From positions 22,575,338 through 22,639,337 of the forward strand of contig CM039505.1 in the NCBI GenBank assembly GCA_022432975.1: DNA of 64,000 nucleotides. Direction: 5' to 3'. Shown one piece after another: positions 21,388-56,223 of the stretch; the stretch's first letter is position 1, and the number at the start of each line of letters is the position of its first letter. Origin of the DNA: Begonia masoniana (taxonomy: Eukaryota > Streptophyta > Magnoliopsida > Cucurbitales > Begoniaceae). The notes beneath the pieces are model-generated. The model saw only the letters and a list, made by a program, of their open reading frames with translations. It did no database searches and was not told where the DNA came from. A program made the position numbers and the translations under genes.

Positions 21388-22009
21388 GTAAGTGAATGTA
21401 CTAAGTTTCCGGCCAATAGGGCCCTACATCAAAGGACTATGTTAGATTTAGTGAACGTTGTCTGCTATATGTTTGATGAAATGTCGATGGATATGGTTCT
21501 GTTATTCTCATGTACTCCCCTGTCTTAGTTCGATGATTAAGTGCATTTATGTTATGCATCATGTTTTACTTCTCAAGCATATGAAAATGTTTTGAAATAT
21601 GTTTTCTCATGAATAAGGTAAGAAGATAAAACTTATGCAACGTGGTTAAGTGAGGGTTGGGGGTGGTTCGGCGTATGTCACAGTCCGCAGTAGGACATAT
21701 GAATACGACCCGCAGTAGGGACCATGATCAAACTCACTGTCGAACCCCCTTTACCGGCACAAATCCTCCCTTAAACCACATAATGTAATGAAGAATATGA
21801 ATGATGAAAGGAATGATGAATATGAGCATGTCTACGAATGATGATTATGAACAATGAATACGAGATACGATTATGAATGATGATTAAGATAAGTACATGA
21901 AAAGAAAAGACTTATGAGCATGTTTTTCTCCAAGTTATGCATTCATGAACTCATAATAGTTTGCATTCCTTACTAAGCCTTAGGCTTACAGTTACACCTT
22001 ATGATGTAG
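21388..22009 (+). other. Conserved intron-like LTR module of LTR B
   Basis: Donor-like CCAG|GTAAGT at 21388. Hairpin GGCC-AATAG-GGCC at 21411-21423, then CCTACATCA. Branch-like TACTAAG at 21971 and acceptor-like GATGTAG|GTG ending at 22009. Nine bases after the hairpin are complementary to the acceptor, with a further four after a bulge. 622 bp. Use as an intron is inferred, not shown. Confidence 0.65.
21683..21720 (+). other. Paired mini-hairpins with GCAGTA loops
   Basis: GTCC-GCAGTA-GGAC at 21683-21696 and CCC-GCAGTA-GGG at 21709-21720. Conserved in LTR A near 20640-20690 and LTR E3 near 55863-55902, where loop bases vary but the stems remain. Confidence 0.55.
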
Positions 22010-22359
22010 GTGAAGAAATATCAGGTGAGGAATTCAAAGTTGATGAAAATGTCTAAGCTCGGTTGCTGAAGGTGCTCAGGGTGGAAAGTCTGTGGCTGGA
22101 TGGCGATTATGACCCTCTGGTTTTACTCTTAAGGTTTTAATGATAACTATGAACATAAAAGTTTAAGTAGGATGATGTTATTTATGATTATGGAGCTTGA
22201 ACTTGTCTAGCTTGAATACTGATTATGAGTATATTATAAGAATATAGAATGAGTGATTTTAACTAAGTCTTCCGCTGTATGAGTTTTAATGAATCTGTGG
22301 TTTATTCTGTTGGTGTCCCAGTATTAAGTTTGAAGTTATGATGTTTGTGCTGCCGGTAG

Positions 22360-22860
22360 ACGAAATGTATTTGTCTATCGGAAGGTGTGAGTGTTATTAT
22401 GGAGTTTAGAAATCGGTAGATGAAGTTTGCTTGTCTACCGGAAGAAGAAGATGTTAGGTTAATGTTTAGTAGTCGGTAGATGAAAGTACTTGTCTATCGG
22501 CAGGAGGATTGTGATGGGAGTCGGGTAAGTCTGTCTTCCGGAGGACGTCATCGGAAGAGGAAAAGTATTTGTCTTCCGGCTGACGTCATCAGCAGACGAT
22601 ATGCCTAGTGATCGGCATGTGTAGTAGGTCAAGTTACCGGAAGATGGAAATGTCATTCCGCCTTACCGGAAGATGTAGTGCCACGTCATCGGCAGATGAT
22701 GTGAGTTAATCTACCAGAAGATGTAGTGCCACGTCATCGGCAGATGATGTGAGTTAATCTATCGGAAGATGTAGTATAAATGCCATCGGCAGATGTTGTG
22801 TGTTGCCATCGGCAGATGGAGTGCCTTGTCATCGGTAGATAAGTCAGTCTTTTGTCGTTG
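22360..22860 (+). repeat. Degenerate TGACGTCA/CGGCAGATG repeat region of LTR B
   Basis: Loose repeats of CATCGGCAGATG, TACCGGAAGATG and CTGACGTCATC, in the position where LTRs A and E3 carry homogeneous 38-bp arrays. It represents the unamplified state. Confidence 0.75.
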
Positions 22861-24115
22861 TAATTGAGTGATGATTTAATTGGTCACGCGTGATGCACGT
22901 GACCGTCGGCAGATGCAAATATGTGTGCCTGCCGATAGATGTCTAATGAATCATGTGAGATGCACGTGCAGGCCGGTAGAACAACTGGATGTTTGTCGTT
23001 TAGCGACCGGCAGGAGTGAAAGCTAAATGTGGTTGTTCAGCGAACTTAAGTTAAGTTAGAATGAGATTTGATATATATATATAAAAAAAATAATATACAC
23101 CGATTACAGAGGTATAAAAGTACGGATAAGTTTAAAGGAAAGTCATGACACGTGACGATCCTCCTCGGGTCGTTACATTTTATCTTCTTATTTTATTCAT
23201 GAGAAAACATATTTCAAAACATTTTCATATGCTTGAGAAGTAAAACATGATGCATAACATAAATGCACTTAATCATCGAACTAAGACAGGGGAGTATATC
23301 AGAATACCAGAATCATATCCATCGACATTTCATCGAACTTATAGCTGACAACGTTCACTAAATGTAACATAATCCTTTGATGTAGGGCCCTATTGGCCGG
23401 AAACTTAGTACATTCACTTACCTGGATTCCTTAGCAACTTGAATCACTTTCTCTTCAACTTCTTCACCTAAAACATTCCACATTACAGTAGTTAAAATAA
23501 AGTCCTAAAAGTTCTACTCGAAAGTCATCCTAGAATCTAACAGCTAAAGTCATTCCGATTCCACTGTTTGACACACTGCAGTCTGAAATCCGAAACTAGG
23601 TGGACAGGTTTTACCATTGATTAAATCCGAGTTGGTTACTTTAAAATGTTCAGAATCGATTTGGGATGGCATTTCTACTCTCAGACTTAAAAGAGTCTAA
23701 AACTACTCGGCCACTGCTAGAAATCCGAACTCAAATGCCGAGTTGAAAGCAGAGCTTTAATCACTAATAAATGACTACATTGTCCATTTCATACCTCGGG
23801 TGCAGATTGCAGAGAAAAGCAGGCTGAAACCAGCCGTCGGCAAGGGGAGGTTTTGATAGCCGAGAGTAAAAGCTTGGGAGAGAAGGAATCGCCGAGAGGG
23901 AATGTCGGCTACAGTGGTAATAAATGAGGTTTAAGGTTTCCATTTCCTATTTATACCTAACCCATAAATTTTAATTACAAAACTGCCACCCAACCTAGTT
24001 TTACTCAACTTGTAATAATTTTATCTTAACATTAAATTTAAATCATAAAGGTTAAATAAGAGGGTGACAATGAAAATGGTCAGAAGATCACCTGGCCGAA
24101 ATGTCGGGTGTTACA

Positions 24116-24240
24116 GACCGGATGAGTAAAAATGTGAACAGTGACCGGATGAGTAAAGATGTGAACAGTGACCGGATGACTAAAAATGTGAACAGTGACC
24201 GGATGAGTAAAGATGTGAACAGTGACCGGATGACTAAAAC
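24116..24240 (+). repeat. ~27-bp minisatellite of LTR C, right part
   Basis: Continuation of the 18205-18549 array beyond nested LTR A, about four to five units of GTGAACAGTGACCGGATGA plus TAAA. It begins with the duplicated GACCG. Confidence 0.93.
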
Positions 24241-24829
24241 TTAAAAGACAAAACTGGCAACTTTTAACATGATTTCATGAAAACAAAAGTTGTGGAAACA
24301 GAATGTATGAAAACTTCAAACTTTAGAAAATGATTCTAAACATGATTTTGAACATATCGGGAAAAACACGACGGAAATTTAAGGAAAAACAAATTTCATG
24401 GATGGCTCTAACATGACAGAAACTTATGAAAAATCACACTACATGGATAGCTCTAAAAACCAAAAACTGTCTATGCACAGACTAACAGAAAATATTCCAA
24501 ACAAATTCCAGAATACTTCAAAACATAGTTCAACTGTCAAATACAGAGATTTTAAACATCAATACAGAATCTATACATTGTTTCAAAATTTCAGAGACAG
24601 TACAAAACGTGACATACATTTACAGAAACTCCCAAAACAGAAGTTTTCTACAGGATCTTTAACACAAAAACAAGAATTTCATAAAAACTTTACAATACAG
24701 ACTATTTTTTAAACTTGGACCTCAGAACAGGATTATGTCTATCTGCAACAACCACCATGTGAGCTCGATCTGCCAACTACATCAACTCATCTGCTTGAGT
24801 CACAAGCTCCTCATCTGGAGGATCCATAC

Positions 24830-25309
24830 CTACAAAAGGAGTTCAACTATGAGCCTAGAGCTCAGTAAGAACATGAAATGCAGTGATGCATGGATGCATG
24901 AACTTTTGAAATACATGAACTATACATTACATAACATTACGTTTCACTGGACAGGAAAGGTATAAGTGGGAGAAGGAGCTGGCGCAACAGGATGTACATG
25001 CCACTTCAGGACATAACAGGAGTACTTGACAGGATGCCAGCCCTCGTCCACACTTAACCATACATTTTCTTTACAGGATTTTATCTTACTTACTTCAAAA
25101 CCGGTGCTGAAAACATTTGCATGATTTTACAGGAAACGTGTATGCATGAATAAGTGTGATGCTCAACATAAATGACAGAATAAATGCAACAGGGAGAATA
25201 AAACATAACAGGAGCAAGTTTAACTTAAACTCTATCTACCCGAACCAGACCAGACCTAGTACCTCCAAGTTGTAGGGCCTTAAGGGCCAACGTAGATGCA
25301 TGAACTTAC
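24830..25309 (-). other. Conserved intron-like LTR module of LTR C
   Basis: Minus strand: ACAG|GTAAGT donor-like site at 25309, hairpin GGCC-CTTAA-GGCC, CCTACAA, then CTTACTGAGCTCTAGG and acceptor-like TTTTGTAG|GTA ending at 24830. CCTACAA pairs with TTGTAGG, with a further GGAG/CTCC match after a loop. 480 bp. Confidence 0.6.
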
Positions 25310-25951
25310 CTGTGTGTAGCCAAGTAGTATGCTCGAACGCCTCTGGAAAGCTCGGACCTGGAGCATGAATGTTCAGGGTTTAAATACACTACAAATGCTA
25401 ACTAATATCACGTAGGAAATGCAGCAAACACATTTCAACTCTTTAGAAAACACACCAACGTGTTTTCACCCAAAAACAGTGAGTTTTCACCAATTGTCGA
25501 AACCCTAAATTTCGGTAAAAACTCACATTAAACTCATCCAAATTTTTTAGCATTAAAAGACGCTCACCTTTGCTGAAGAAGACGGGAAATTACAGGAGAA
25601 ACAAAGCGTGGAAGTTTTGTTTCAAACACTTGGAAGAGAGAAAGCCGAGAGAGATGGGAGGAAGCAGAGAAGTGAATGAAAATTCACGTAGGAGGAAGAA
25701 CTTAGCTTCTTCAACAAGTTGCCACTTGGCACTCATCCATTGGCTTTCTCCCACCAACCTTAATTCTTACCTATTTTACCCTTCCATTGGTTTTTAACTA
25801 ATTTGCTTTGTTTTGGTTACACATTAGTTTAGTTTCACTAAATATTTCCAACAATTCAACCAAAACATACGTTGTATAAATATAATGTTAATCCCGCATA
25901 AATGATTCGGGAAAACAATTACATGGCAAAAATGCCGGGTGTTACACAAAT

Positions 25952-26148
25952 GGAGGTAAATGGTATATTATCACTCCCATTGATGATTTCAGTTGAAAAA
26001 CCTGAGCTTATTTTTTATATGAACAATCTGAAGCTTTAATTGCTTTCAAAAGCTTTAAAGCAATTGTTGAGAAAGAAATAGGTCATCACATACAAGTGTT
26101 ACGCATAGATCGTGGTGGAGAGTATAACTCACATGAATTTGTAGATTT
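25952..26148 (+). pseudogene. Copia-1 integrase fragment, right of nested LTR C
   Basis: Continues the integrase core interrupted at 17981: YIITPIDDFS, then EQSEALIAFKSFK, VLRIDRGGEYNSHEF near 26105-26135, which carries the second catalytic Asp. Stops occur near 25995 and 26010. The frame ends near 26148 at a junction with a foreign fragment. The catalytic Glu region is missing. Confidence 0.85.
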
Positions 26149-26239
26149 TTGCCCAACTGTAGAACTCGGATCATCAACATTCTCTGGATCTTTTTCTGGA
26201 ACTCCTTCCGTGACATCAGGTGGAACATCAGATTCATAA
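26149..26239 (-). pseudogene. Fragment of SIRE-like env-like ORF
   Basis: The minus strand reads VPPDVTEG and ENVDDPSST, matching the C-terminal VPPDVMEGDAENIDDPNST of the env-like ORF at 50193-50801. A ~90-bp stray piece inserted between a copia integrase and a gypsy RT piece. Confidence 0.75.
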
Positions 26240-26345
26240 TGGTACATTTTGATGATATTCTACTGTATAGTGTGGATCTACAAACACACTTAGGTCACCT
26301 TCAACAACTAATTGAGACACCTAGAGCAAAACTCCTGAGAATAAT
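26228..26345 (+). pseudogene. Gypsy reverse transcriptase fragment
   Basis: Reads MVHFDDILLYSVDLQTHLGH, the FDDILxYS catalytic box of gypsy RT and the following helix. Only about 35 residues remain. Confidence 0.75.
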
Positions 26346-26591
26346 TTAATTAACCCAATAGCTAACCTAACTTAAATTAATTAAATTAGCCTGAAAAATT
26401 TCCAGAGTATTACAAAATCTGACTTTGCCACAAAAAGCCTCAATAATTAACAATGCTAGATACTATACTCAGGTTTTCCAAAACTAGTTCTGTCCATTTC
26501 TCTTTTCCTTCAAATTCTCACCTCTCTAATGGCCATTGTCTCCTTTTCGTCAAAATGAAAACTAGGTTTAGGTTTGTTAAGTGTGGCTTAA
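26346..26591. other. Noncoding spacer before the TRIM
   Basis: AT-rich; no feature recognised except the CTTAA target duplication at 26587-26591. Confidence 0.5.
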
Positions 26592-26670
26592 TGTAACGAC
26601 CCCTTTTCCCAGTAAGATATTGTCCGCTCTGGGGATTGAGCCGTAGCCCAATATCCTCCCCTCATGACTT

Positions 26671-26782
26671 TGTTTGGCGAGGACTTCCCAGTCGGTCACC
26701 CAACTTGGTACTACTCTCGCTGAAGCACTTTTAACTTCGGAGTTCTTAAGGGATCCGTTATCAATTGTGCTCCAAAACGCGT
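26671..26782 (-). ncRNA. 5S rRNA-like segment in TRIM LTR, copy 1
   Basis: The minus strand resembles plant 5S: GGATCC, GAACTCCGAAGTTAA, then GCGAGAGTAGTACC and TGGGTGACC, GGGAAGTCCTCG. These cover the internal pol III control region. The 5' third is diverged, so this is not a genuine 5S gene. Confidence 0.85.
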
Positions 26783-27065
26783 CTTACTATCTTGGGAGGG
26801 TCTCTTTACATATGTTTCATTTTCACATACTTCCCCAAGCGATGTGGGATTGTGACGACCCCCTTTTCTACGACCGAACCCTCCGGCTCAAGTCCAACCT
26901 GGGATCCGCGGAGTTTTAACCCTGCACGTCACCCTCCGGCCCAAGTCCCACTCGGGATTCGCAGAGCACTGGGTGGTTCCTCCTCATCCGTGTCCATTCG
27001 GGTCATCACAATCACCCCCCCTGGGGGCCCAACGTCCTCATTGGCCACATTTTCAGTTGGGTACA

Positions 27066-27078
27066 GACTCTGATACCA
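27066..27078 (-). other. Primer-binding site of the TRIM
   Basis: The minus strand reads TGGTATCAGAGTC directly beside the 5' LTR end (27081), matching the initiator-Met tRNA complement. Confidence 0.85.
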
Positions 27079-27159
27079 TTTGTAACGACCCCTTTTCCAG
27101 TAAGATATTGTCCGCTCTAGGGATTGAGCCGTAGCCTAATATCCTCCCCTCACGGCTTT

Positions 27160-27271
27160 GTTTGGCGAGGACTTCCCAGTCGGTCACCCAACCTGATACT
27201 ACTCTCGCTGAAGCACTTTTAACTTCGGAGTTCTTATGGGATCCGTTGTCAATTGTGCTCCAAAACGCGTC
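27160..27271 (-). ncRNA. 5S rRNA-like segment in TRIM LTR, copy 2
   Basis: Counterpart of 26671-26782, offset exactly 489 bp, with the same GAACTCCGAAGTTAA and GGGAAGTCCTCG blocks and a few substitutions. Confidence 0.85.
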
Positions 27272-27503
27272 TTACTATCTTGGGAGGGTCTCTTTACATA
27301 TGTTTCATTTTCACATACTTCCCCAAGCAATGTGGGATTGTGACGACCCCCCTTTCTACGACCAAACCCTCCAGCTCAAGTCCAACCAGGGATCCGCGGA
27401 GTTTTAACCCAGCACGTCACCCTCCGACCCAAGTCCTACTCGGGATTCGCGGAGCACTGGGTGGTTCCTCCTCATACGTGTCAATTCGGGTCATCACACT
27501 TAA

Positions 27504-28580: not shown

Positions 28581-28649
28581 TCTTGGAATTAGAAACCTAT
28601 ACTTGATTGTGATTTGATTTATGACTTACACTATTCACACACATTCACA

Positions 28650-28888
28650 TGGTCTCATCTTTCTTCGGAACTATCAAGGAAGCCACGACATAAGAATTTA
28701 AGGAATTACAGATGTATCCCTTATCAAGAAGCTCTTTGACTTACTTGTGCAATTCTTTTACTTGTTTTGGATTCATTTGGTAGTACAGACAATTCGGAAG
28801 TACCACTCCGGGGACCAAATCTATTTGATGCTCAATTCGTCTAAGTGGAGGGAGGCCTTATGGAAGCTCTTATAGAAAGACATCTTTA
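28650..28888 (-). pseudogene. Gypsy pol fragment upstream of the RT domain
   Basis: The minus strand reads GLPPLRRIEHQIDLVPGVV, then QVKELHK, a stop, VKELLDKGYI and IVPKKDET, i.e. the linker and first RT block of a gypsy polyprotein. It carries an in-frame stop and ends abruptly on both sides. Confidence 0.8.
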
Positions 28889-29057
28889 TAACATTACGGT
28901 TGGTCGTCGCCATGCATTTTGATGGGGAAGTTTTTTGTCAGGTTAGTGTTTTGTTTGTGTCGTTGTTATCTTTCTTTTCTCTTGAATCTGTTCTCTCCCT
29001 TTTGTTTGATTTTGGGTGTTTGATTGTCTTCTTGCTACTGTCTTTGACTATCCTAGT

Positions 29058-30133: not shown

Positions 30134-30180
30134 ATCCTGGTGCTTGTTTTTTCTTTTTTCTTTTTTTTTTTTCTGAAATA

Positions 30181-30480: not shown

Positions 30481-30676
30481 ATGGCTATGCAAAAAATGAT
30501 AAAAACCTAAATCAAGACAGAATGGGTGGGACGGTCTCTGTAACACTCGATTCTATTGGACTAATTCTCTATTCTTTTTAAATTAATGGCACACTTTATT
30601 TGGTAATAATAAAAGTAGGGTTAGTGGATGACTAGGCAAAGACATAAGAGTAATTGAAATTTAAAAGTGGATAACG

Positions 30677-30684
30677 TATTTAAG
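30677..30684 (+). promoter_or_regulatory. TATA-like box of Gypsy-1 5' LTR
   Basis: TATTTAAG about 138 bp inside the LTR, a similar spacing to the TATA box of LTR B, followed by a pyrimidine-rich leader. Confidence 0.5.
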
Positions 30685-31079
30685 GAAAGAAGTTTGGGTT
30701 TAATGCATTTGTAGCCGCCACTATTCCCTATTTTCTCTCTTTCGGTCTTCAGCTCAAGCAGCAGAGCTCTCTAGGCAAATCTTCTACTCGAATCTTCTCC
30801 GAACTAGGTGAGCCCTATTTCGATTTCTTGCTGTACTGGTAGCTATCGATGATTGGAGAGAGTATAAATGTGAGTTTTGTAAATGCTGTATGGGTAAGCT
30901 AGTCCGGGTTTTGTGGTAAATCGGGAATGTGCTATGAACTAAACTTCCAAACTAGTTTTCCTAGATTTCTGGATAGATTAGAAGGAGGCTTAGTAGAAAT
31001 TTGATTAATATTCTGTTTATGACTTAGCTGAACAAAACTTCTGAAGTAGTTTGAAACCGAGCATTTCCAGGAGAGCCAG

Positions 31080-31558
31080 GTAAGTGAAGTATGCTTGTGC
31101 CTTCGGGCCTACATCACAAAACAGTAGGATTGTGTATAGCGTGATTGTGTTTGTATGTCATGCATCATATTTTGAAAGTATACGAAAATGAATTTACATG
31201 AAATGACATGGTAAGGAATGAACAGACTGTGACAGTTGTTAAGGGAACTAATCCGCCCCTTAATCAAGAGAGAGGATGTATGACTTTGGGGGAAGTGATC
31301 CAAACCCCAATTTTACAGGGGGATCTGAACAGTTTGTTAAGGGAACTAGTCCGCCCCTTAATCGAGAGAGAGGACGTATGACTTTGGGAGAAGTGATCCA
31401 ACTCCCAATTTCACAGGGGGATCAGATCAGAAATGAATGCATATGCAACTGAGATGAGAAAGTAGAAATTTGCATGTTTAGGAATTTATGTTCAACATTT
31501 CATTCATTACTGCTTTACTTACTTAGCATTAGGCTAATATATGAGTTTTGTGATGTAG
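31080..31558 (+). other. Conserved intron-like module, Gypsy-1 5' LTR
   Basis: Donor-like GCCAG|GTAAGT at 31080; hairpin GCC-TTCG-GGC at 31099-31108; CCTACATCACAAAAC at 31108-31122 perfectly complementary to GTTTTGTGATGTAGG at 31545-31559, which spans the acceptor TGTAG|G. CTTACTTAGCATTAGG precedes the acceptor. The interior holds two ~110-bp repeats beginning GTTAAGGGAACTA. 479 bp. Confidence 0.7.
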
Positions 31559-32634
31559 GTGCTGAGCATTCAACAGGTTAATTCCCTGAGTTTACTGAGG
31601 AATAGGTGAAGTTGGAAGAGCACTTCTATGCTACGGTTAGGTGCTCTGATGAGGCAGTTTAACTTTTGTCTGAATGAGAGTTTTCAGTGGTTAGGTATTC
31701 TGATGAAGTGTTCTGAGAATTTTAAATGATAGTAGAAGTTTGATACTACTTTTAACGCTTCGGTGAACTTTTTTTCTGGATTTAGAAATATAATTTGATT
31801 TCGATTGTAGCTTACTATTCTGAATTTTTAAGAATTGTGGAATTTGTGTTGATCAGAATGATTTCAGCAAAATGTACAAAAATCGTTTAGCAGTCGGGTT
31901 TGCTCCTTATTAGAGTCTCTTTTGGTCTATCGGTAGAAGTTGGGTGTTTTGTCTGCCGACAGATGTTGGAGGATTGAATCATCCGACTGACGTCATCGGA
32001 AGAATGTCTTCAGTAGAGGCCATCGATGATGTCTTCAGTAAAAGTCATCGGAAGATGTAGGTAGTAAATTTGTCGTTTAGTGATCGGGTGATGTGTTTTT
32101 ATTTTGTGAGTGAAGGCTTTTGTCATTTTGTGATCGGTGTGAGTTAAATGAGTGAATTATCCGGCTTACGTCATCGGTAGAAGTGTATAATAAGTTTGTC
32201 GTTTTGTGATCGGTGTGAGTTAGATGAGTGAATCATCCGGCTTACGTCATCGGTAGAAGTGTATAATAAGTTTTGTCGTTTTGTGATCGGTGGAAGCCTT
32301 CAGTTTCTGTTTCCGCCCTTTTCGTTGACTTTGCTTATCGGCAGATGTGCTTGACTCTTACGATTTTCAAGTTTTCACGCTTAAGTCTTGATCTCTTCTG
32401 GCCGAATTATTTCTTAATATTTTAACCGATTATGCAAACATTGTTTCTTAGCTCTGCTTAATTCTGTTTTGCTCAAAAGAATTTTTCGCTGCAAGATTTT
32501 AAATATTTTGAGACTTTAGAAAAATGTCAAATTTTGACTTTCGAGCGAAGTTTTAAATTTAGTCCAAAGTTTCTTAGTTATGTTCAGATTATGTGTAACG
32601 AACTGGGTTCAGAGGACTCGGGGCGTTATAGTAT

Positions 32635-37300: not shown

Positions 37301-37392
37301 TGTAACACCCGGTTCTATTGGACTAATTCTCTATTCTTTTTAAATTAATGGCACACTTTATTTGGTAATAATAAAAGTAGGGTTAGTGGATG
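37301..37392 (+). mobile_element. Gypsy-1 3' LTR, first part
   Basis: Starts TGTAACACCCGG directly after the polypurine tract. The first 92 bp match the 5' LTR, then Gypsy-2 interrupts after GTGGATG. The LTR resumes at 46399. Confidence 0.95.
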
Positions 37393-39253
37393 TGTAGCGA
37401 CCCTAATACTGTACCCAATATCCATACCATATTATTATTATTATTATTTTTAACCTAATATCTTTACTTAAACTCTAGGCGGAACCTAAACCGAAATCGA
37501 AACCAGAATCGAAATCGGAATTGAAATCTATCTTTAAAAACATTTAAAACAACTTAAAACAATTAATATAAAACCTTTTAAAAACTGTAAAACTATTAAA
37601 TAAACTTTAATTAAAATGGGAGGACAAAACTGTCCGGGCCGTGACAAAAATGGGCAGCGACCAGTCGCTGCTATAGGCAGCGACTGATCGCTGCACTTGC
37701 TGCAGCGAGCAGCGATCGATCTCTGCATTGCTGCAGAGATCGATCGCTGCACACTCTGCAGTGCAGCGATCGCCTCGTGCGATCCTTAGCCACCCTTTCT
37801 GTTTTTCCTTCATTCTGTTCTTTTTATTTTCACAAGTGCTCTCTGGAATCCAGAGAGAAAATCAAACAATTCAACCCTGATCCTAACAACTTATCAATTT
37901 ATAACTTAAACTCAACCAAAATGTATTCTAAACTCAATCAACTCGCGGCGGACTTTACGAAATCCCACTGCGTGGATATATCTAAATACCGAACATATCC
38001 TCCTGTTTTCAAATCACTAAACAATCACAAAACGTTTAAAAACATTAACATGTAAACCTATCAACTACCGGAACCAAGCACCCTATAATGTCTATACAAT
38101 TTTCCTATTCTATCCAAAAATAGCTTTCAAAATCTATACATACTGTCCCCACGGGTCAAATAAGCCTCGACTGCGCCAGCACGCCACCACGGCCATCCTC
38201 CGTCAACTGGACTCAAGCCTCAGGAGGAGGAATCCAATCCTCACCTGGTTCCTCGATATCTAGATCACCTACACCATACAATACACTATGAGATGAAATC
38301 CTAGTAAGCTCTACGTAAATGCAATGCATGCTGTGCGTATGAGTTCGATAAACCATGCTTTATTTTATCTTACTATGCAATGCTCAATAGGTGTCACCGA
38401 GATCCTATCCCTCTAACCGGAGAGAGCTCATCCAGCGGCACCTCAAATTCCAATTTACGAGTTATTCCTAAAATCTCGAAAATCCCTAATTTTTAACATT
38501 TTCACGAATTGATTTAACTTCGTCCAATAACGTCGAATACGTGCAATATATACTTAATCACGGCTAACCTATTAATTACGAACCCTAATTCGCGTTTTAA
38601 ATCGAAACCCTAAACGAACCTAATTGTTTAAAACTCCGAAATCATCGAAATAAAAGCTCTAAGATTGTAGGTTCATACCTAGAGCGTCGATTGAAGGAGA
38701 AATCACGAAGAAAACGAAGCGAACGGAGGTCGGATCGGAGAGATTAGTCGCGGCCAGAGGAGAAGTCGCGAAGGAGGAAAAAGAAATGCTCTCTGGAAAT
38801 CGAAGAAGGCAGGGACGAATGAAGAAAGAAAATAGATTTAGGTTAGTTTTATAATTTTGATTTGAAAAATTATTAAAATGCCCTTCTTTGATTTTTATAT
38901 AAGTTTCATCACTCGGTTAGTTAATCGTCCAGCTATTCGGTTTCACCAAATCTCCTTATTTCACCAATATATCCAACTTATTATTTGAGATTTAATAAAA
39001 CTGTCTGTTCTCAATTTGGACCTCATTTACTATTTTTACTAAAACATCCTTTATATTACGATGGAGGGAATTACTCGGAATATAGCTATATTATTCCAGA
39101 AATTCTCGTAAATTCTTTAAAATTCCAATTAGTCGTTAGGATCGTAATGACACTTCCTTTTCGTGAAACGAACCTGATTTGACACATTTACAAAAATGTC
39201 ATCTAATAATATAATAATAATATTCTAAAAATCCGTACGAGCCGGATATTACA
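37393..39253 (-). mobile_element. Gypsy-2 3' LTR with 598-bp internal deletion
   Basis: 1861 bp against 2459 bp for the partner LTR. Sequence equivalent to about 45000-45597 is missing between AGCGG and CACCTC, with CGG at both breakpoints in the intact copy. The deletion removes the donor side of the conserved module; the acceptor side remains at 38269. The minus-strand start TGTAATATCCGG adjoins the polypurine tract AAGGAGGGTAGA. Confidence 0.94.
37655..37790. repeat. GCGATCGATC/GCAGCGA palindrome cluster, Gypsy-2 3' LTR
   Basis: Interleaved GCAGCGACC, GCGATCGATC, AGAGATCGATCGCTGC and GTGCAGCGATCGCC elements, mutually complementary and able to fold as stacked hairpins. Repeated in the other LTR at 44197-44335. 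Confidence 0.85.
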
Positions 39254-42742: not shown

Positions 42743-42772
42743 AATCCTCCTCTGATCACTTGCTGGCTGATC

Positions 42773-42958: not shown

Positions 42959-42967
42959 ACCCCTCTG

Positions 42968-44335: not shown

Positions 44336-44827
44336 CTTAGCCACCCTTTCTGTTTTTCCTTCATTCTGTTCCTTTTTATTTTCACAAGTGCTTTCTGGAA
44401 TCCAGAGAGCAAATCAAACAATTCAACCCTGATCCTAACAACTTATCAATTTATAACTTAAACTCAACCAAAACGTATTCTAAACTCAATCAACTCGCGG
44501 CGGACTTTACGAAATCCCACTGCGTGGATATATCTAAATACCGAACATATCCTCCTGTTTTCAAATCACTAAACAATCACAAAACGTTTAAAAACATTAA
44601 CATGTAAACCTATCAACTACCAGAACCAAGCACCCTATAATGTCTATACAATTTTCCTATTCTATCCAAAAATAGCTTAAAACCCTCAAAATCTATACAT
44701 ACTGTCCCCACGGGTCAAATAAGCCTCGACTGCGCCAGCACGCCACCACGGCCATCCTCCATCAACTGGACTCAAGCCTCAGGAGGAAGAATCTCATCCT
44801 CACCTGGTTCCTCGATATCTAGATCAC

Positions 44828-45405
44828 CTACACCATACAATACACTATGAGATGAAATCCCAGTAAGCTCTACGTAAATGCAATGCATGCTGTGCGTATG
44901 AGTTCGATAAACCATGCTTTATTTTATCTTACTATGCAATGCTCAATAGGTGTCACCGAGATCCTATCCCTCTAACCGGAGAGAGCTCATCCAGCGGGCG
45001 GACTACTCTTTCCAGCTAGAGGCGGGGGTGCACGCTTACAACACGTACAACAGTGCCTGAGCCCCACCTCGCGTGACCAATACGCCTTTCGGCCAATACG
45101 CCTTTCGGCCAATACTATGCTCAATACGCCTTTCGGCCAGTGCTATGCTTTACGTTATCTTTAAAACTCTGTGCGGAAGTTCATTTTCATGCTTTTCTTT
45201 AAAACAAGTGATGCGTGAACAATTCAATATCATACAGTAAACAAGAAATAATATGTACCATCAAGACTGTAAAGCGTAAACTATAAACTCCTAAAACCTA
45301 GCTACCCAAGCCAAATACAATTAAACAAACGCATCTCCAAAACTCCTCGAGACGACACGACGTACGGTGTAGGCCAATCGGCCAAAGAAGATCACGAGAA
45401 CTTAC
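44828..45405 (-). other. Conserved intron-like module, Gypsy-2 5' LTR
   Basis: Minus strand: donor-like CGAG|GTAAGT at 45405, hairpin GGCC-GATT-GGCC, CCTACACCGTAC (45373-45362). Acceptor side GTATGGTGTAG|GTG (44838-44827), preceded by CTTACTGGG. The two ends pair over 12 positions with one G-U. 578 bp. Confidence 0.68.
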
Positions 45406-46040
45406 CTCGTGTCCAAAGCAGCTCAAGCTCCGTCCACGAGCGTTGTTTGACTGAAGCAAAACACAAGGATTTACGTTAAAACGTGTTTGAGTTAATAAAC
45501 GTCCAAATTGTCAAAACCTTAACTAAAGAATTTCCTAAAGCTCTAATTCGATTCGTTGCACTATTCTATCGAGCAATTTACGCTCGGCACCTCAAATTCC
45601 AATTTACGAGTTATTCCTAAAATCTCGAAAATCCCTAATTTTTAACATTTTCACAAATTGATTTAACTTCGTCCAATAACATCGAATACGTGCAATATAT
45701 ACTTAATCACGGCTAACCTATTAATTACAAACCCTAATTCGCGTTTTAAATCGAAACCCTAAACGAACCTAATTGTTTAAAACTCCGAAATCATCGAAAT
45801 AAAAGCTCTAAGATTGTAGGTTCATACCTAGAGCGTCGATTGAAGGAGAAATCACGAAGAAAACGAAGCGAACGGAGGTCGGATCGGAGAGATTAGTCGC
45901 GGCCAAAGGAGAAGTCGCGAAGGAGGAAAAGGAAATGCTCTTTGGAAATCGAAGAAGGCAGGGACGAATGAAGAAAGAAAATAGATTTAGGTTAGTTTTA
46001 TAATTTTGATTTGAAAAATTACTAAAATGCCCTTCTTTGA

Positions 46041-46398: not shown

Positions 46399-48391
46399 TG
46401 ACTAGGCAAAGACATAAGAGTAATTGAAAATTTAAAAATGGATAACGTATTTAAGGAAAGAAGTTTGGGTTTAATGCACTGTAGCCGCCACTATTCCCTA
46501 TTTTCTCTCTTTCGGTCTTCAGCTCAAGCAGCAGAGCTCTCTAGGCGATTCTTCTACTCGAATCTTCTCCGAACTAGGTGAGCCCTATTTCGATTTCTTG
46601 CTGTACTGGTAGCTATCGATGATTGGAGAGAGTATAAACGTGAGTTTTGTGAATGCTGTATGCTAGTTCGGGTTTTGTGGTAAATCGGGAATGTGCTATG
46701 AACTAAACTTTCAAACTAGTTTCCCTAGATTTCTGGATAGATTAGAATGAGGCTTAGTAGAAATCTGATTAATATTCTGTTTATGACTTAGCTGAACAAA
46801 ACTTCTGAAGTAGTTTGAAACCGAGCATTTCCAGGAGAGCCAGGTAAGTGAAGTATGCTTGTGCCTTCGGGCCTACATCACAAAACAGTAGGATTGTGTA
46901 TGCTTGATTGTGTTTGTATGTCATGCATCATATTTTGAAAGTATACGAAAATGAATTTACATGAAATGACATGGTAAGGAATGAATAGACTGTAACAGTT
47001 GTTAAGGGAACTAATCCGCCCCTTAATCAAGAGAGAGGATGTATGACTTTGGGGAAAGTGATCCAAACTCCAATTTCAGAGGGAGATCTGAACAGTTTGT
47101 TAAGGGAACTAGTCCGCCCCTTAATCGAGAGAGAGGACGTATGACTTTGGGAGAAGTGATCCAACTCTCAATTTCACAGGGGGATAATATCATAAACGAA
47201 TGCATATGCAACTGAGATGAGAAAGTAGAAATTTGCTATGTTAGGAATTTATGTTCAGCATTTCATTCATTACTGCTTTACTTACTTATCATTAGGCTAA
47301 TAGATGAGTTTTGTGATGTAGGTGCTGAGCATTCAACAGGTGAATTCCCTGAGTTTACTGAGGAATAGGTGAAGTTGGAGGAGCACTTCTATGCTACGGT
47401 TAGGTGCTCTGATGAGGCGGTTTAACTTTTGTCTGAATGAAAGTTTTCAGTGGTTAGGTATTCTGATGAAGTGTTCTGAGAATTTTAAATGATAGTAGAA
47501 GTTTGATACTACTTTTAACGCTTTGGTGAACTTTTTTTCTGGATTTAGAAATATAATTTGATTTCGATTGTAGTTTGCTATTCTGAATTTTTAAGAATTG
47601 TGGATTGTTGCTGATCAGAATGATTTCAGCAAAATGTACAAAAATCGTTTAGCAGTCAGGTTTTCTCCTTATTAGAGTCTCTTTTGGTCTATCGGTAGAA
47701 GTTGGGTGTTTTGTCCGCCGACAGATGTTGGAGAATTGAATCATCCGACTGACGTCATTGAAAGAATGTCTTCAGTAGAGGCCATCGGATGATGTCTTCA
47801 GTAAAAGTCATTGGAAGATGTAGGCAGTAAATTTGTCGTTTAGTGATCGGACGATGTGTTTTTATTTTGTGAGTGAAGGCTTTTGTCGTTTTGTGATCGG
47901 TGTGAGTTAGATGAGTGAATCATCTGGCTTACGTCATCGGCAGAAGTGTATAATAAGTTTGTCGTTTTGTGATCGTGTGAGTTAGATGAGTGAATCATCC
48001 GGCTTACGTCATCGGTAGAAGTGTATAATAAGTTTTGTCGTTTTGTGATCAGTGGAAGCCTTCAGTTTCTGTTTCCGCCCTTTTCGTTGACTTTGCTTAT
48101 CGGCAGATGTGTTTGACTCTTACGATTTTAAAGTTTTCACGCTTAAGTCTTGATCTCTTCTGGCCGAATTATTTCTTAATATTTTAACCGATCATTCAAA
48201 CATTGTTTCGTAGCTCTGCTTAATTCTGTTTTGCTCAAAAGAATTTCCGCTGCAAGATTTTAAATGTTTTGAGACTTTAGAAAATTATCAAATTTTGACT
48301 TTCGAGCGAAGTTTTAAATTTGGTCCAAAGTTTCTCAGTTATGTTTGGATTATGTGCAACGAACTGGGTTCAGAGGACTCGGGGCGTTACA
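46399..48391 (+). mobile_element. Gypsy-1 3' LTR, second part
   Basis: Resumes at TGACTAGGCAAAG and runs to GGGGCGTTACA. Very similar to 30629-32630, with scattered substitutions and small indels. Confidence 0.95.
46844..47321 (+). other. Conserved intron-like module, Gypsy-1 3' LTR
   Basis: Same elements as 31080-31558: GCCAG|GTAAGT, GCC-TTCG-GGC, the 15-base sequence complementary to the acceptor, CTTACTTATCATTAGG and TGATGTAG|GTG. 478 bp. Confidence 0.7.
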
Positions 48392-48396
48392 GTCTC

Positions 48397-49765: not shown

Positions 49766-50192
49766 ATCTCCTCCTTTGGCATTTTTTGGCAAAATCAATA
49801 AAACCAATAACTTCAATAACTCCCATTGAATTAACTACCCCTGGATGGTGGCTTTAATCATCATAAAAATACATCAATCATCATCATATCAAAATATGGT
49901 ATCATAGAGCATATTCCCCAAAATACTTCCCCTTTTTGCCATAAAAGGAGAAAAAAAAATATTTAGGAGAATATCAACTACTATAAAAGCATCATAATCA
50001 CCAAATAATCATCATAGGGAGATAACCAATATCAGAAAATATAATATCCAGATAAGCACCAGAGTCGTCATGTGAGAACCGTAGCCAAAGTATAATATCC
50101 AAATAGTAAAAAGATTATCTAGGGAAAAATATTCATAGCCAGACATCTACTTCAAGAAATAGAAACAGTGTAGAAATATTCAATAAATGAAA
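49766..50192 (-). other. 3' noncoding region of the SIRE-like element
   Basis: Polypurine tract at the LTR border (49766-49790), then AT-rich sequence without an ORF between the env-like ORF and the LTR. Confidence 0.6.
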
Positions 50193-52045
50193 TTATTCTG
50201 GAGAAACTCGCCTATCTGTAGAATTTGGATCATCAATATTTTCTGCATCTCCTTCCATGACATCTGGTGGAACACGGGATGGACCAGCTCCTTCATTTGA
50301 CTTGAGATGTGAACTCGAGGCTTCCATGTGCGGGTTCTTTTGGTAGATATCATTCAGAAGCATAGAAATTACAGATTTATGTTTTTCAAGATCAGAAATT
50401 TGGATGCTTAGGGATTTCGACATATCCACTAAAAATTTGACAAATCGAGCCAAAAGTACCAAATCAGTTTTGGACTTAGAGATTGGCAGGCCTTCAACAA
50501 AACCTTCTAAATCATTTATGTGTTCTCCCACCTGTAGTTTATAACTAATACGGATCTCCTCTTTTTCAACATATAAAATTTCATTCTCTCTGATGATAGA
50601 CAGTTGAGCAGATAAAATGCCATATATAAGTGAGGAAAATGGGAGAGCCAACCTTGTATTCTTACCATCTTCATGCTTCATGATCTGTTCAAAGAACAGC
50701 TTGCCAAAATCAACAGATATTGAATTTTCAATTTTAAATAATAATGCTGCCATTGTCTTGTTAACTCTGGTTCCATGAGAAGTCGACATCCAGTTTCTCA
50801 TGGCTATTTTATGCAGAATGCCATACTTAACTGACAGTTGTGCAACTAGAAAATTTTACCATGGGGCCAGATTCATCTGACACCCCCAGTGACATCGAAA
50901 ATTATTGCATTGTAGTCCGACACAAATTTGTCAGAGTCACTCATCTTTTAGTACAAGTAATCATTAATAACAGATGTGGTAAAATTAAAGATATGTCCTC
51001 GAACATATACACGGCCAAAACTGGGATGAATTGGATTTTTCACATCAGAATCCAGGTTGCAATAAAGTTCGAGAATGACTTTCCAAACAAACGGTTTAAT
51101 ATCTCTTAAGGTTTTCTCCAATCCTAGACTCATGAGATGGTATACTAATGCCTCACATTGTGAAAAATCACTTTCATAAATTTTTCTTTAAGTCCAAATA
51201 GTTCTTTTTGAAAAACTAGGCCATCGACTAGCATGAATTTGAGATTTAAAATCTTCAGCAGTAACTTTATAAGAGGACTTACCGGTTTTCGTGCTAGACT
51301 CACCTTGATTGGTTGTTTTGGAGCAAGAGGAGGCCTTAATTGATGGACTTATGCTGGATTTTTGCTTTTTGGAATGTTGAGCTTTGGATGGAGCAAGCTT
51401 GGGTGACTTAGAAGTATCAGACTTTGAAACAGAGGACTTGGGTGTTTTTGGTGCAGCAGACTTTTTGGATTTCGGAGCAGTGGACTTTGTACGCTTGGGA
51501 GCAGCGATCCTGGAAGATTTTTAGGTCGATTTTTCTGGTGATTTTTCAATGATTTCTTCTTCATCATCGATATTGACTTCAAAGACATCTTCTTGAAGCC
51601 ATGAATTGTCTGACGAGGATTCTTTTTCTACTCTCGGTCTTTTTCTTTTCGAAGCCGAGGAAACTTTTGAATCTTTAGGTGCCTTGGGAGGCACAGAGCT
51701 TGTTTTAAATATATCTCTGGTGGGTTTTCGAAATCTTCGTTTAATCTCTGAAGAATCTATCTGAGTAATAGGAACAGCTTCTGCAGTAATTTTCGGAGTA
51801 ACCCTTTCAGTAACAAAAGGTTTTACCAGTGGTGAAAACGGTGAATAAATCACAATAGCATAATCCGAGCTCGGCATTTTCTCTTCGACGGTCACTGGAA
51901 CATTGCCTAAAAATTGCGCATCAGAAACTTCTTTGATGATCACCATTGTGAGAGGAGCGATAGAAAGCCCTAGAAAACTGATTGTAGAACGAGCAGAAAC
52001 AGAAAGAGAGTATTCTGGAAATCTCTCAAATTTGAAATATATCAA
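50193..52045 (-). pseudogene. Env-like / plant-transposon-domain ORF downstream of pol
   Basis: Extra ORF in the position where SIRE elements carry an env-like gene; function unknown. The N-terminal part (52045-51521) has MVIIKEVSDAQFLGNVPV, then a basic Lys/Arg/Ser-rich segment (SSASKRKRPRVEKE) and an acidic stretch. The middle is Pro/Ser/Lys-rich and read in shifted frames (51588-51349). The C-terminal part reads HPSFGRVYVRGHIFNFTTS (near 51010) and MRNWMSTSHGTRVNKTMAAL, resembling the 'putative plant transposon protein' domain, then GPSRVPPDVMEGDAENIDD and a stop at 50193. Frame changes near 51520, 51200 and 50870 disable it. No signal peptide or clear transmembrane segment was seen, so a true envelope role is doubtful. 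Confidence 0.7.
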
Positions 52046-52449
52046 TCACATTCCATAAAAAATATAAAATCCCAGAAATAAATAAAATCCCAGATTTTAA
52101 GTAAATTTTCAGAAAATAAATCCGAGAATCTACCAAATTTCCATAAATCACATAATTAAACTCTCATGAATCTTTGATGAATAATTCTGATCTCTGTAAG
52201 ATGGGAAATAAACCCAATAGAATAATACTGCTCCAATTTTCATCGAAAATAAACTTTCAAATTTTTATAAGAATAGTCAGAATTTCTCATGTTACACATA
52301 GTGTTGTTCCATAAAATCAGCATAGTATCAAAAAGAATTATTTTCAGCATAAGGTGAGCCTAGGCACAGTAGATTGGCAAAAAAAAATAAAAAAAATGCC
52401 TAATGCAAGTGGCGATTTTTTTTATAAATAAATAAAAGCAATAAATGAC

Positions 52450-53565
52450 TTACATAACACAGAGGCCTAGAGCAGACCTCAGCTCTTCAAATCTTATACC
52501 ATTCAATGCTTTGGTAAAAACATCGGCAATTTGTTTTTCGGTCATCATATGCTCAAAATTAATAATTTTGTCCTCCACAAGAGATCGAATAAAATGATGT
52601 CGTATATCAGTATATTTTGTCCGAGAATGCTGAACAGGATTTTTAAAAATATTGATAGCACTCAAATTATTACAGTAGAAGGTCATGATATCCTGTGTGA
52701 CACCATAGTCTTTCATCATTTGTTTCATCCAAAGAAGCTGCGTACAGCTGCTACCTGCTGCAATATATTCTGCCTCAACAGTAGACAGAGAAATAGAATT
52801 TTGCTTCTTGCTAAACCATGACACCAAGTTGTGTCCAACATAAAAACATCCACCCGAAGTGTTTTTTCGATCATCAGAACTACCTGCCCAGTCAGCATCA
52901 CAATAACCCACCAGATTTACATTAGATTCGAATGAATACCATATACCATATTCGGTTATTCCGCTAACATATTTGAGAATTCGCTTGACTGACACAAGGT
53001 GAGACTCCTTTAGATTTGCTTGAAATCGAGCGCATAAACCCACGCTATAACAAATATCGGGTCGATTGGCAGTTAGATATAGGAGACTTCCAATCATACT
53101 TCTATATAAACGTGGATCAATAGCAATGCCCTTCTCATCTTTGGAGAGTTTCTCATGTGTCCCAATGGGTGTTCTACTCGGTCATGCATTATCAAGTTGA
53201 AATTTTTTCAATAAATTCTTGGCATATTTGGCTTGAGAAATAAAAATACCATTATTTTCTTGCTGAATTTTAACTCCAAGAAAATAATTGAGTTCTCCAA
53301 CTATACTCATTTCAAATTCTCTAGTCATTTGAGCTACAAATTCATCCATCATCGCCTGTGACACCGAGCCAAACACTATATCATCAACATAAATTTGAAC
53401 GAGTAAAAATCGACCTTTGTCAAGGCGAACGAAAAAGGTTTTATCTACTCCCCCTCGCTCATATCCCTTGGTTAATAAATATTGTGTGAGTCTTTTATAC
53501 CACGCACGAGGAGCTTGTTTAAGTCCATATAACGCCTTTTTCAATTTATAAACATACTCGGGATG
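52450..53565 (-). pseudogene. SIRE-like RT C-terminal part and RNase H
   Basis: Minus strand: KKALYGLKQAPRAWYKRL, FLLVQIYVDDIVFGSVSQ (catalytic YVDD), GELNYFLGVKIQQ, QAKYAKNLLKKF to 53182. After a break near 53110-53180: MIGSLLYLTANRPDICYSVG, GYCDADWAGSSDDRKNTSGG, SLSTVEAEYIAAGSSCTQL, KYTDIRHHFIR and ADVFTKAL, the copia RNase H. The upstream RT half lies at 56929-57532 beyond solo LTR E3. Confidence 0.93.
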
Positions 53566-53977
53566 ATGAGTGTAACGACCCGGGAAGGATCGCCACGTAA
53601 TTCATGACTTTACTCACTCCTTTCACTCTTTTATATATTTTTTTTTTACTAAGCAGCGGAAATACTAATTCTGTAGTCACATGTAGGACATGGACAATGA
53701 AATAAGACATTTGGCTGGGGGATTTAAAAAAAAAAAGGCATCTGCCGAACTCAACGACAAAACTTCACTCTCATCTGCCGATCGCTAAACGACAAGGCAG
53801 GAGAGGGCTCACATCTACCGATAAACCAAAGCTACATCTTCCAGGTGATCCCGTGCATTTCACATGATTCATTAATCACCCATCGGTAGATGTAAGTTCT
53901 CACATCAACCGACAGTCACGTGCATCCCACACAATTCATTAAACGTTCGTCGGCAGATATACAAACCGCATCTGCCG

Positions 53978-55041
53978 ATGACGTCAGCCGGCAGCTAATC
54001 AAACCGCGTCTGCCGTTGTCGTCAGCAGGAAAGGTATATAAACTGTATCTGCCGATGACGTCAGCAGGAAGATAAACAAACTGTATCTGCCGATGACGTC
54101 AGCAGGAAGATAAACAAACTGTATCTGCCGATGACGTCAGCAGGAAGATAAACAAACTGTATCTGCCGATGACGTCAGCAGGAAGATAAACAAACTGTAT
54201 CTGCCGATGACGTCAGCAGGAAGATAAACAAACTGTATCTGCCGATGACGTCAGCAGGAAGATAAACAAACTGTATCTGCCGATGACGTCAGCAGGAAGA
54301 TAAACAAACTGTATCTGCCGATGACGTCAGCAGGAAGATAAACAAACTGTATCTGCCGATGACGTCAGCAGGAAGATAAACAAACTGTATCTGCCGATGA
54401 CGTCAGCAGGAAGATAAACAAACTGTATCTGCCGATGACGTCAGCAGGAAGATAAACAAACTGTATCTGCCGATGACGTCAGCAGGAAGATAAACAAACT
54501 GTATCTGCCGATGACGTCAGCAGGAAGATAAACAAACTGTATCTGCCGATGACGTCAGCAGGAAGATAAACAAACTGTATCTGCCGATGACGTCAGCAGG
54601 AAGATAAACAAACTGTATCTGCCGATGACGTCAGCAGGAAGATAAACAAACTGTATCTGCCGATGACGTCAGCAGGAAGATAAACAAACTGTATCTGCCG
54701 ATGACGTCAGCAGGAAGATAAACAAACTGTATCTGCCGATGACGTCAGCAGGAAGATAAACAAACTGTATCTGCCGATGACGTCAGCAGGAAGATAAACA
54801 AACTGTATCTGCCGATGACGTCAGCAGGAAGATAAACAAACTGTATCTGCCGATGACGTCAGCAGGAAGATAAACAAACTGTATCTGCCGATGACGTCAG
54901 CAGGAAGATAAACAAACTGTATCTGCCGATGACGTCAGCAGGAAGATAAACAAACTGTATCTGCCGATGACGTCAGCAGGAAGATAAACAAACTGTATCT
55001 GCCGATGACGTCAGCAGGAAGATAAACAAACTGTATCTGCC
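53978..55041 (+). repeat. 38-bp TGACGTCA array of LTR E3
   Basis: 26 identical-looking units start at 54054 and recur every 38 bp to 55004. One looser copy at 53978 makes 27 octamers. The unit aligns without gaps to that of LTR A (GATGACGTCAGC.GGAAGA.AAA) but differs in the other half, so each array was homogenised separately. Confidence 0.97.
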
Positions 55042-55570
55042 TACATCACCCGATATAAACACACTGTATCTACCGATAGAAATCTCGTTACTTCTACCGA
55101 TAGCAAAAGAAAATCCTTTATATTTACCGACTGATAACATACTACAGCTACCGATAGAAAACACCCTGCATCTACCGATAGAAAACACATCACTCCTACC
55201 GGTAGGACTAAACAACATCTCCCAATAGACATAATCATGAACAAGTCTCAAACTTTCTAGACTTAACATTTCTGTAAACAGAAATCAATGATTCCCTCAG
55301 AGTACATATATCGGAAGTCTTAAACAAAAGATATTCAATAAACTGTACCATCCTCTATCCAGTGAGCATCCAGATAATTTCCAATCCCAGTACTATGAAA
55401 TAACTTCATTCTACTTATACTTCCATATTAAAATCATTAATAATGTTCATAGAGCATAAACCAGAGAACTTATTCGCCAATCCAGCCTTCACTGCCACAC
55501 TGAGCATTCTCCAACAGCCAAACTTAGACTTCCTCATTTAACTTGAATCCCTCACCTAAAAACTCGTCAC

Positions 55571-56223
55571 CTACATCAAAGGTTTAAACTATAAGCCTAA
55601 TGCTTAGTAAGGAATGCAACAATAACATGAATGCATGAATGCATAATTCAGAGAAAAACGTGGTCATGAGTCTTTTCTTGTTCATAATCATTATTCCATA
55701 TTCATCATTCATAACATAATTCACATTGCTGAAACACATTCATCGTTCGTATTATAGTCCATATCGCTGAACCATATTCGTTATTCATATCATTGTTCAT
55801 GTTGCGTGGGATGAGAGAGGATTTGTGCCGGTAAAGGGGGTTCGACAGTGAGTTTGATCATGGTCCCTACTGCGGGTTGTATTCATATGTCCTACTGTGG
55901 ACTGTGACATACGCCGAACCGCCCTCAACCCCCACTCATCCACGTTGTAGGGATTTTATCATCTTATCTTGTTCATGAGAGAACATGCTTTTAAAACATT
56001 TTCATGTGCATAAAACATTGATAATGCATGAGCATGGGGTTCTTTAACCCGTCCAAGCTGTAGGACAGAACATTCAGCCAGTATGAAAAGCTTACTATCG
56101 AACCAATCGTCGACATAAATGCTAGACAGTAACATGAAAGAACTACTAATCATCGTACGAGTTTCTACTTAGCATCCTTTGATGTAGGGTCCTATTGACC
56201 GAGAAACCTATACATTCACTTAC
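55571..56223 (-). other. Conserved intron-like module of LTR E3
   Basis: Minus strand: CCAG|GTAAGT at 56223, hairpin GGTC-AATAG-GACC, CCTACATCAAAGG (56188-56176) perfectly complementary to CCTTTGATGTAGG (55582-55570) spanning the acceptor. Preceded by CTTACTAAGCATTAGG. 653 bp. Compared with LTR A/B the stem has C-G replaced by T-A. Confidence 0.7.

Follow-up and report, generated by a model that had tools for sequence, protein, structure and literature searches.

We analysed a stretch of 64,000 nucleotides of Begonia masoniana DNA (assembly GCA_022432975.1, contig CM039505.1, positions 22,575,338 to 22,639,337 of the forward strand; hereafter, the window), in which the long terminal repeats (LTRs) of Ty3/gypsy retrotransposons carry an intron-like module whose two ends base-pair with each other. 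The LTR leader is best explained by a split arrangement of exon 1, intron 1, a mini-exon, intron 2 (the module) and exon 3, and the helix formed by the ends of intron 2 is a conserved RNA structure, with compensatory change at paired positions beyond what relatedness accounts for. Judging from the sequences, we give about even odds (a probability of roughly 0.5) to the interpretation that this structure is a splicing attenuator, which would hide the 3′ splice site and give rise to separate translated and genomic RNA pools. All genomic counts, alignments and trees refer to a single plant genome, that of the window.

The module comprises, in this order, a 5′ splice site (AG|GTAAGT), a hairpin (H1), an arm starting with CCTACA, the motif CTTACT, a further hairpin (H3) and a complementary arm that spans the 3′ splice site TGTAG|G. 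A previous inspection of the letters of the window (the sequence-only reading) had reported this series of motifs in seven copies, and all seven indeed showed AG|GTAAGT, a hairpin, CCTACAYC or CCTACAAC, and then CTTACT and TGTAG|G at the coordinates given. Those coordinates had been presented as LTRs and turned out to delimit the introns; the module sits within Ty3/gypsy LTRs, those of the element G1 extending over about 30629-32632 and 46399-48393. The donor-acceptor spacing had been reported as 480-650 bp; intron 2 is 478-653 nt long in six copies, and in copy A it spans 3,061 nt because LTR B was inserted within it. The layout is that of a U2-type intron: the borders are GT-AG, and the presumed branch site falls within the 20-50 nt upstream of the AG that such introns call for. 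Eight donors and the same number of acceptors occur in the window. The donor added to the earlier series belongs to LTR D (5994, minus strand), whose acceptor was lost to a 28-bp satellite, and a second LTR of the element G2 has kept its acceptor (38269, minus strand) and misses about 590 bp, the stretch in which its partner LTR has the donor. This gap was also considered as a trace of splicing and rejected, its borders not being GT-AG by eye. Comparison of the window with itself separated four divergent groups, namely G1; A, B and E3; C and D; and G2. The copies and their parts are listed below; the candidate introns 1 of G1, G2 and the A/B/E3 group come from inspection.

31080-31558, plus strand: intron 2 of the G1 5′ LTR, 15 consecutive pairs; H1 31099-31108, 5′ arm 31108-31122, CTTACT 31518-31523, H3 from 31523, 3′ arm 31545-31559
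31028-31079, plus strand: putative mini-exon 2 of the G1 5′ LTR (52 nt), AG before and donor after it, placed by position and by analogy with other clades
30808-31027, plus strand: candidate intron 1 of the G1 5′ LTR (gtgagc..cttag)
46844-47321, plus strand: intron 2 of the G1 3′ LTR, 15 pairs, H3 with one broken pair; 5′ arm 46872-46886, 3′ arm 47308-47322
46578-46791, plus strand: candidate intron 1 of the G1 3′ LTR, followed by the putative mini-exon 46792-46843
21388-22009, plus strand: intron 2 of LTR B, 9 pairs and 4 past a bulge; H1 21411-21423, 5′ arm 21423-21437, CTTACT 21969-21974, 3′ arm 21996-22010
21035-21341, plus strand: candidate intron 1 of LTR B, followed by the putative mini-exon 21342-21387
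20361-23421, minus strand: intron 2 of LTR A, split by the insertion of LTR B; 5′ arm 23372-23386, 3′ arm 20360-20374
24830-25309, minus strand: intron 2 of LTR C, 7 pairs and 4 past an internal loop; H1 25276-25288, 5′ arm 25262-25276, CTTACT 24864-24869, 3′ arm 24829-24843
25358-25567, minus strand: candidate intron 1 of LTR C (agcaaag|gtgagc .. ctccag|gt), mini-exon 25310-25357
44828-45405, minus strand: intron 2 of the G2 LTR, 13 pairs with G-U; H1 45372-45383, 5′ arm 45359-45373, CTTACT 44862-44867, 3′ arm 44827-44841
45451-45827, minus strand: candidate intron 1 of the G2 LTR, putative mini-exon 45406-45450
55571-56223, minus strand: intron 2 of LTR E3, 13 pairs; H1 56188-56200 (GGTC/GACC), 5′ arm 56174-56188, CTTACT 55606-55611, 3′ arm 55570-55584
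56270-56599, minus strand: candidate intron 1 of LTR E3, putative mini-exon 56224-56269
5946-5994, minus strand: donor side of LTR D; H1 5960-5972, 5′ arm 5946-5960; satellite at 3512-5633 in place of the acceptor
38269-38330, minus strand: branch motif, H3 and acceptor of the second G2 LTR, donor side missing

Counted from the CCTACA/TGTAGG anchor and with G-U pairs included, the end helix runs for 15 consecutive pairs in G1, 13 in E3 and in G2, 9 in A and B and 7 in C, with four more pairs past a one-base bulge in A and B and four more past an internal loop in C (by eye). The sequence-only reading had given the same counts for G1, E3, B and C, and one pair too few (12) for G2; its further claim that variants of the 5′ arm are matched at the acceptor holds partly for the CAAC of LTR C, in which the A pairs and the next C does not. 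When arms were swapped among the four divergent groups, the runs reached 6-9 pairs and never exceeded the matched pair (7-15), A and B tying at 9 with the G1 and G2 acceptors. It was also seen by eye that the donor GTAAG is complementary to the branch-site CTTAC in the window copies, which together with the end helix would make a pseudoknot.

The donor-side pattern (GGTAAGT, 8-38 bases, GGCCYTACA) was found 17,631 times in the 795 Mb of the genome, compared to 4 times for a reversed control; an earlier pattern with a fixed gap had given 114 matches versus 25 for its control, many of those copies lacking H1 by eye. Module copies elsewhere in the genome that lie 6-9 kb apart on the same strand and are about 97-98% alike look like LTR pairs, and two further clades were recognised by eye among the fetched loci. 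From 119 loci (113 genomic and 6 from the window), acceptors were placed blind to pairing by a rule that used the branch motif, H3, GYAG and the exon GT, which succeeded in 98 loci with 73 distinct arm pairs; the 21 dropped comprised 20 without a rule-fitting acceptor and one without the donor pattern. Little can be read from positions 1-6 of the helix, since both the donor pattern and the acceptor rule were biased toward pairing there. At positions 7-14, 425 of 584 cells were paired in the 73 distinct copies, whereas the mean over 5,000 partner shuffles was 359 and their maximum 385, and slid registers had 209-323. Position 10 was paired in 22 of the 73 copies and position 15 in 8, a sharp end; the helix is thus 14 positions long and includes a single mismatch. 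On a tree of 85 copies that was built without the arms (13 of the 98 were dropped for having fewer than five of the first six pairs), seven branches changed both partners and stayed paired; at positions 7-12 there were six such branches, versus 0-1 in slid registers. The covariation that the sequence-only reading had proposed to look for in a larger set is thus present.

Both hairpins adjoin these elements, H3 lying directly after the branch-like CTTAC and H1 beside the end helix. The arms of H3 vary in step (TGAGC/GCTCA, TAAGC/GCTTA, TTAGC/GCTAA, TGGGAT/ATCTCA), and its outer stem had at least 5 pairs in 44 of 62 copies, a set used for H3 only, in which the acceptors were chosen partly by pairing. 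Of 88 distinct spacers, 59 had an H1 stem of at least 4 and 22 had no stem, compared to 504 of 1,760 shuffled spacers with at least 4, the 3′ arm of H1 being partly fixed by the search pattern.

The candidate intron 1 ends 45-53 nt ahead of the donor of intron 2 (donor 2) in the window copies, and the mini-exon so delimited is poor in ATG, with 4 versus 46.5 expected in 61 copies. Likewise, the last 44 nt before donor 2 contained 6 ATG, with 62.6 expected, and were ATG-free in 92 of 98 copies, whereas a stretch of the same size at −110 to −66 from donor 2 contained 63 in the 98 copies. Intron 2 itself is ATG-rich (1,457 versus 671 expected).

A search for joined exon 2-exon 3 sequence, limited to exon 2 ends ACAG or CCAG and one form of exon 3, led to three genomic places, one of which (L237) counts as a true intron-2-less copy. 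The other two were rejected: in L238 the intron is still whole and only its acceptor is mutated, and L239 has other LTR sequence, reversed, up to exon 3. Aligned to its relative L140, L237 falls into three blocks that correspond to exons 1, 2 and 3, both introns being missing exactly at their borders, and both intron-1 borders of L140 had been predicted before the search for intron-less copies was made. L237 is also without about 190 bp of the upstream LTR part relative to another copy, L137. In L137, intron 1 is missing and intron 2 is kept; in L241, intron 1 is missing and the donor of intron 2 is kept, its acceptor not being found with a simple pattern. L241 was retrieved by a first exon 1-exon 2 pattern that was one base off and unable to match L137 or L237, and the corrected pattern had seven genomic matches, L237 and L137 among them, with 0 for the controls; the sequence was read for these two, the other five matches resting on 20 bases. 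Intron 1 is missing in up to seven copies besides L237. The end of exon 1 in LTR C of the window is similar to that of the intron-1-less copies, and no intron-less copy of G1 was seen.

The genomic copies L237, L137 and L241 look as expected of reverse-transcribed spliced RNA. The introns may thus be removed precisely from RNA, and reverse transcription of such RNA would be the simplest cause of the exact losses. The LTR-leader intron with paired ends proposed in the sequence-only reading is hence supported by covariation in a larger set, by exact intron losses and by an ATG-poor mini-exon upstream. Loss of intron 2 is very rare: an intact acceptor followed by the same exon 3 was matched 3,518 times versus one true intron-2-less copy, and in another clade there were 10,121 intact donors, a loose denominator, versus 0 joined copies with a pattern that takes one form of exon 3. 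Therefore, either the RNA that is reverse-transcribed has nearly always kept intron 2, or this intron is rarely spliced.

A coding mini-gene was also considered, as exon 3 of 41 copies resembles a conserved acidic tail with a similarly placed stop. It was rejected, since the exon 2 frame is open in 27 of the 41 copies and the other frames in 25 and 18; visual inspection also showed no start codon in exon 1 that is common to the window copies. The block common to exon 3 (TGAGGA) looks conserved as DNA.

The features of the splice sites outline how attenuation might operate. The 18 nt before the acceptor are 54% pyrimidine, with a longest run of 6 in 69 of the 85 copies, and in 78 of the 85 the presumed branch A is separated by 36-38 nt from the end of the intron, a distance toward which the acceptor rule broke ties; GGTAAGT was imposed by the donor pattern. 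Intron 2 would thus combine a near-consensus 5′ splice site with a 3′ splice site that lacks an extended pyrimidine tract and is enclosed by the helix, and with a strong donor and a hidden acceptor its splicing would be slow or partial. The purine motif [AG]TGAGGA, which 57 of 85 copies have within the initial 40 nt of exon 3, versus 2 of 946 intron windows, could be an enhancer. Spliced RNA would shed the ATG-rich introns and could act as mRNA, whereas unspliced RNA would retain the structure, be packaged and be reverse-transcribed, in such a way that the introns persist in new LTRs. We judge it likelier that the pairing holds splicing back than that it helps, because the 3′ AG|G is itself within the helix. 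Among loci L124-L236, several clades read AG|GTGAGG in exon 3, a possible further donor after an exon of 15-24 nt.

Several results weigh against the pairing or against this interpretation. For the arms of A, B, C and D, the T-rich acceptor of G1 outpairs their own acceptors over the next ten positions when no gaps are allowed; given this unfavourable count, the seven copies of the window are weak evidence when taken by themselves, and the larger set decides. On the tree of that set, three double changes broke the pair and one-sided changes that break pairs are common (50, versus 53 that keep them), while partner shuffles leave the relatedness among copies in place. The covariation of H1 is thin, E3 providing its one clear double change. 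ATG is not depleted in exon 3 (274 versus 202 expected), and hardly so in the 90 nt before donor 1 (70 versus 83.7 expected), this donor having been picked with a weight matrix that is noisy in many copies and skipped one of 62; the spliced leader therefore still meets AUGs before gag, or there is further splicing that was not found. AGGTA stands at both borders of intron 2, and a microhomology deletion could mimic its single loss in L237; the borders of intron 1 share only AG, and loss by deletion between repeats is less easy there than for intron 2. Finally, the description of the intron 2 acceptor as weak is a matter of our judgement.

The same helix might instead bridge the splice sites and promote splicing of an intron poor in pyrimidines, helicases opening the acceptor at a later step. 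This is a possibility to be taken seriously, even though we lean away from it: splice-site-bridging structures are known (reviewed in PMC11802352, in its available text) and the acceptor has no long pyrimidine run, but placing the AG|G within a helix usually hides a splice site, and nearly every reverse-transcribed copy still contains intron 2, which packaging alone could nevertheless explain.

Retroviruses balance unspliced and spliced RNA, with the packaging signal psi after the major splice donor. By a similar logic, a structure present only in unspliced RNA would mark the genome for Gag as a packaging or dimerisation signal, its overlap with the splice site being the source of selectivity. 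As the explanation of the module we find this rather improbable. A conserved structure in a region that splicing removes, and the descent of nearly all copies from RNA unspliced at intron 2, are in keeping with such a signal; an effect on splicing accounts better for the helix coinciding exactly with the 3′ splice site, and binding by Gag is hypothetical. The packaging signal and the attenuator are compatible and may hold together. A tentative combination, which we rate as unlikely as it stands, is that one LTR-intron fold both hides the 3′ splice site and marks unspliced RNA for packaging, nascent folding deciding between messenger and genome; with similar reserve, and by analogy, that fold might be the plant counterpart of the retroviral leader switch.

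It is very unlikely that these are ordinary LTR introns whose ends are complementary just because splice signals are conserved and the copies share descent. Among the collected copies CCTACA and TGTAGG hardly vary, the acceptor half is partly a splice signal, many copies are close relatives and, in the window alone, some swapped arms pair equally well; however, positions 7-14 lie outside the core splice signal and yet pair across divergent clades, the pairing ends sharply at position 14, and double changes occur on individual branches of the tree. The notion that the arms are terminal inverted repeats of a miniature inverted-repeat transposable element inserted in an ancestral LTR, which the sequence-only reading had named as an alternative, is scarcely credible: the inverted ends lie about 450-620 bp apart and the AGGT(A) common to the intron 2 borders can be read as a target-site duplication, but AGGT(A) is splice consensus too and cannot discriminate, the arms match within each clade, differ between clades and change together, and the interval missing in L237 is bordered by splice sites, starts at GT 28-35 nt before the 5′ arm and thus does not have the inverted repeats at its ends, the upstream intron being gone too.

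Regarding the host elements, the internal region of G1 contains Retrotrans_gag/Ty3_capsid, RVT_1, Integrase_H2C2 and SH3_Tf2-1 domains between its two LTRs, and G1 is a Ty3/gypsy element by its gag, reverse transcriptase and integrase in this order. G2 contains reverse transcriptase, RNase H and SH3_Tf2-1, plus an rve match below the Pfam cut-off. Chromoviruses (Tekay/Del) have a chromodomain at the C-terminus of integrase; four pieces with broken reading frames were scanned for it, and Chromo had no match with an E value of 5 or below. The label of chromovirus is plausible for these elements. The same sequence stands at 30590-30628 and 37340-37392, ahead of the G1 5′ LTR and of the inserted G2 element, and G2 therefore sits at the edge of the G1 3′ LTR. 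The G1 5′ LTR is preceded by sequence resembling the interior of G1, perhaps from a tandem element. In viral contigs, the module patterns matched 0, at least 120 and 2 stretches, and 5 of 123 loci also fitted a loose acceptor pattern, judged by eye to be chance; a reverse transcriptase search of the same kind of contigs confirmed no relative. The sole match in general genome contigs (L001) fell in a Bacteroidales contig and was likewise judged by eye to be chance.

The 28-bp satellite that took the place of the acceptor half of LTR D has 76 copies (3512-5633). Arrays of a 38-bp unit at 19090-20020 (24 copies) and 53955-55041 (29 copies) are located a few hundred bases past the A and E3 acceptors, apparently in the 3′ part of the LTRs, and arrays with a similar TTCCG..GACGTCA core are also found in other LTR copies. 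At 26592-27498, two 419-bp direct repeats, 95% alike and separated by about 70 bp, each include a minus-strand match to 5S rRNA, and the first is directly followed by TGGTATCAGAG; the pair looks like a Cassandra-type terminal-repeat retrotransposon in miniature (TRIM). These two 5S rRNA matches were the only Rfam matches at gathering score in the window, none being to the module.

The proposed arrangement resembles the retroviral leader in its leader donor, packaged unspliced RNA and structured region lost on splicing, all of which are proposed here; it differs in that the whole intron lies within the LTR and the acceptor is part of the helix.

In the open-access literature searched, where absence is a weak argument, we found no published description of an LTR intron with paired ends. 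According to the available text of a 2025 review (PMC12786077), plant LTR retrotransposons are generally without introns, Ogre and EVADE being named as exceptions; that of a paper on BARE (PMC3735527) adds Bagy2 and CRR as spliced elements, and a classification survey (PMC6317226) mentions the Ogre intron only, in the part available. The accessible text of the LORE1 paper (PMC2832683) contains no word beginning with 'splic', and that of a paper on CRM1 back-splicing describes spliced reads and reports no LTR intron (PMC7010299). Few introns are thus listed for plant LTR retrotransposons, and none inside an LTR, in these portions of the review, the survey and the BARE paper (PMC12786077, PMC6317226, PMC3735527). 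If the LTRs described here do contain two introns, the usual annotation of this abundant group gets its leader wrong. Moreover, the compact covarying structure makes it testable how one transcript serves as mRNA and as genome alike, and exact intron-less copies provide a natural count of how often spliced RNA gets reverse-transcribed.

As far as the available text of these sources goes, the known cases differ from the Begonia module in position or in carrier. The intron of Ogre lies between gag-pro and the reverse transcriptase region (PMC6317226, PMC12786077), unlike the Begonia introns, which lie inside the LTR and, in the case of the module, have a covarying end helix. BARE1 and EVADE are similar in that splicing yields an RNA for translation beside the full-length RNA (PMC3735527, PMC12786077), but their introns are in the coding part of Ty1/copia elements, and neither paired ends nor an LTR intron are described there. 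CRR and Bagy2 also give spliced Ty3/gypsy transcripts in plants, although splicing removes rt in CRR and makes an env RNA in Bagy2, neither being described as an LTR intron (PMC3735527). Long-range structures in introns that bridge or mask splice sites, such as those of Dscam1, MAPT and the human conserved complementary regions, share with the module the control of splice-site use by RNA pairing (PMC11802352, PMC8052449); those belong to host genes, whereas the Begonia structure is carried, thousands of times over, by a mobile element.

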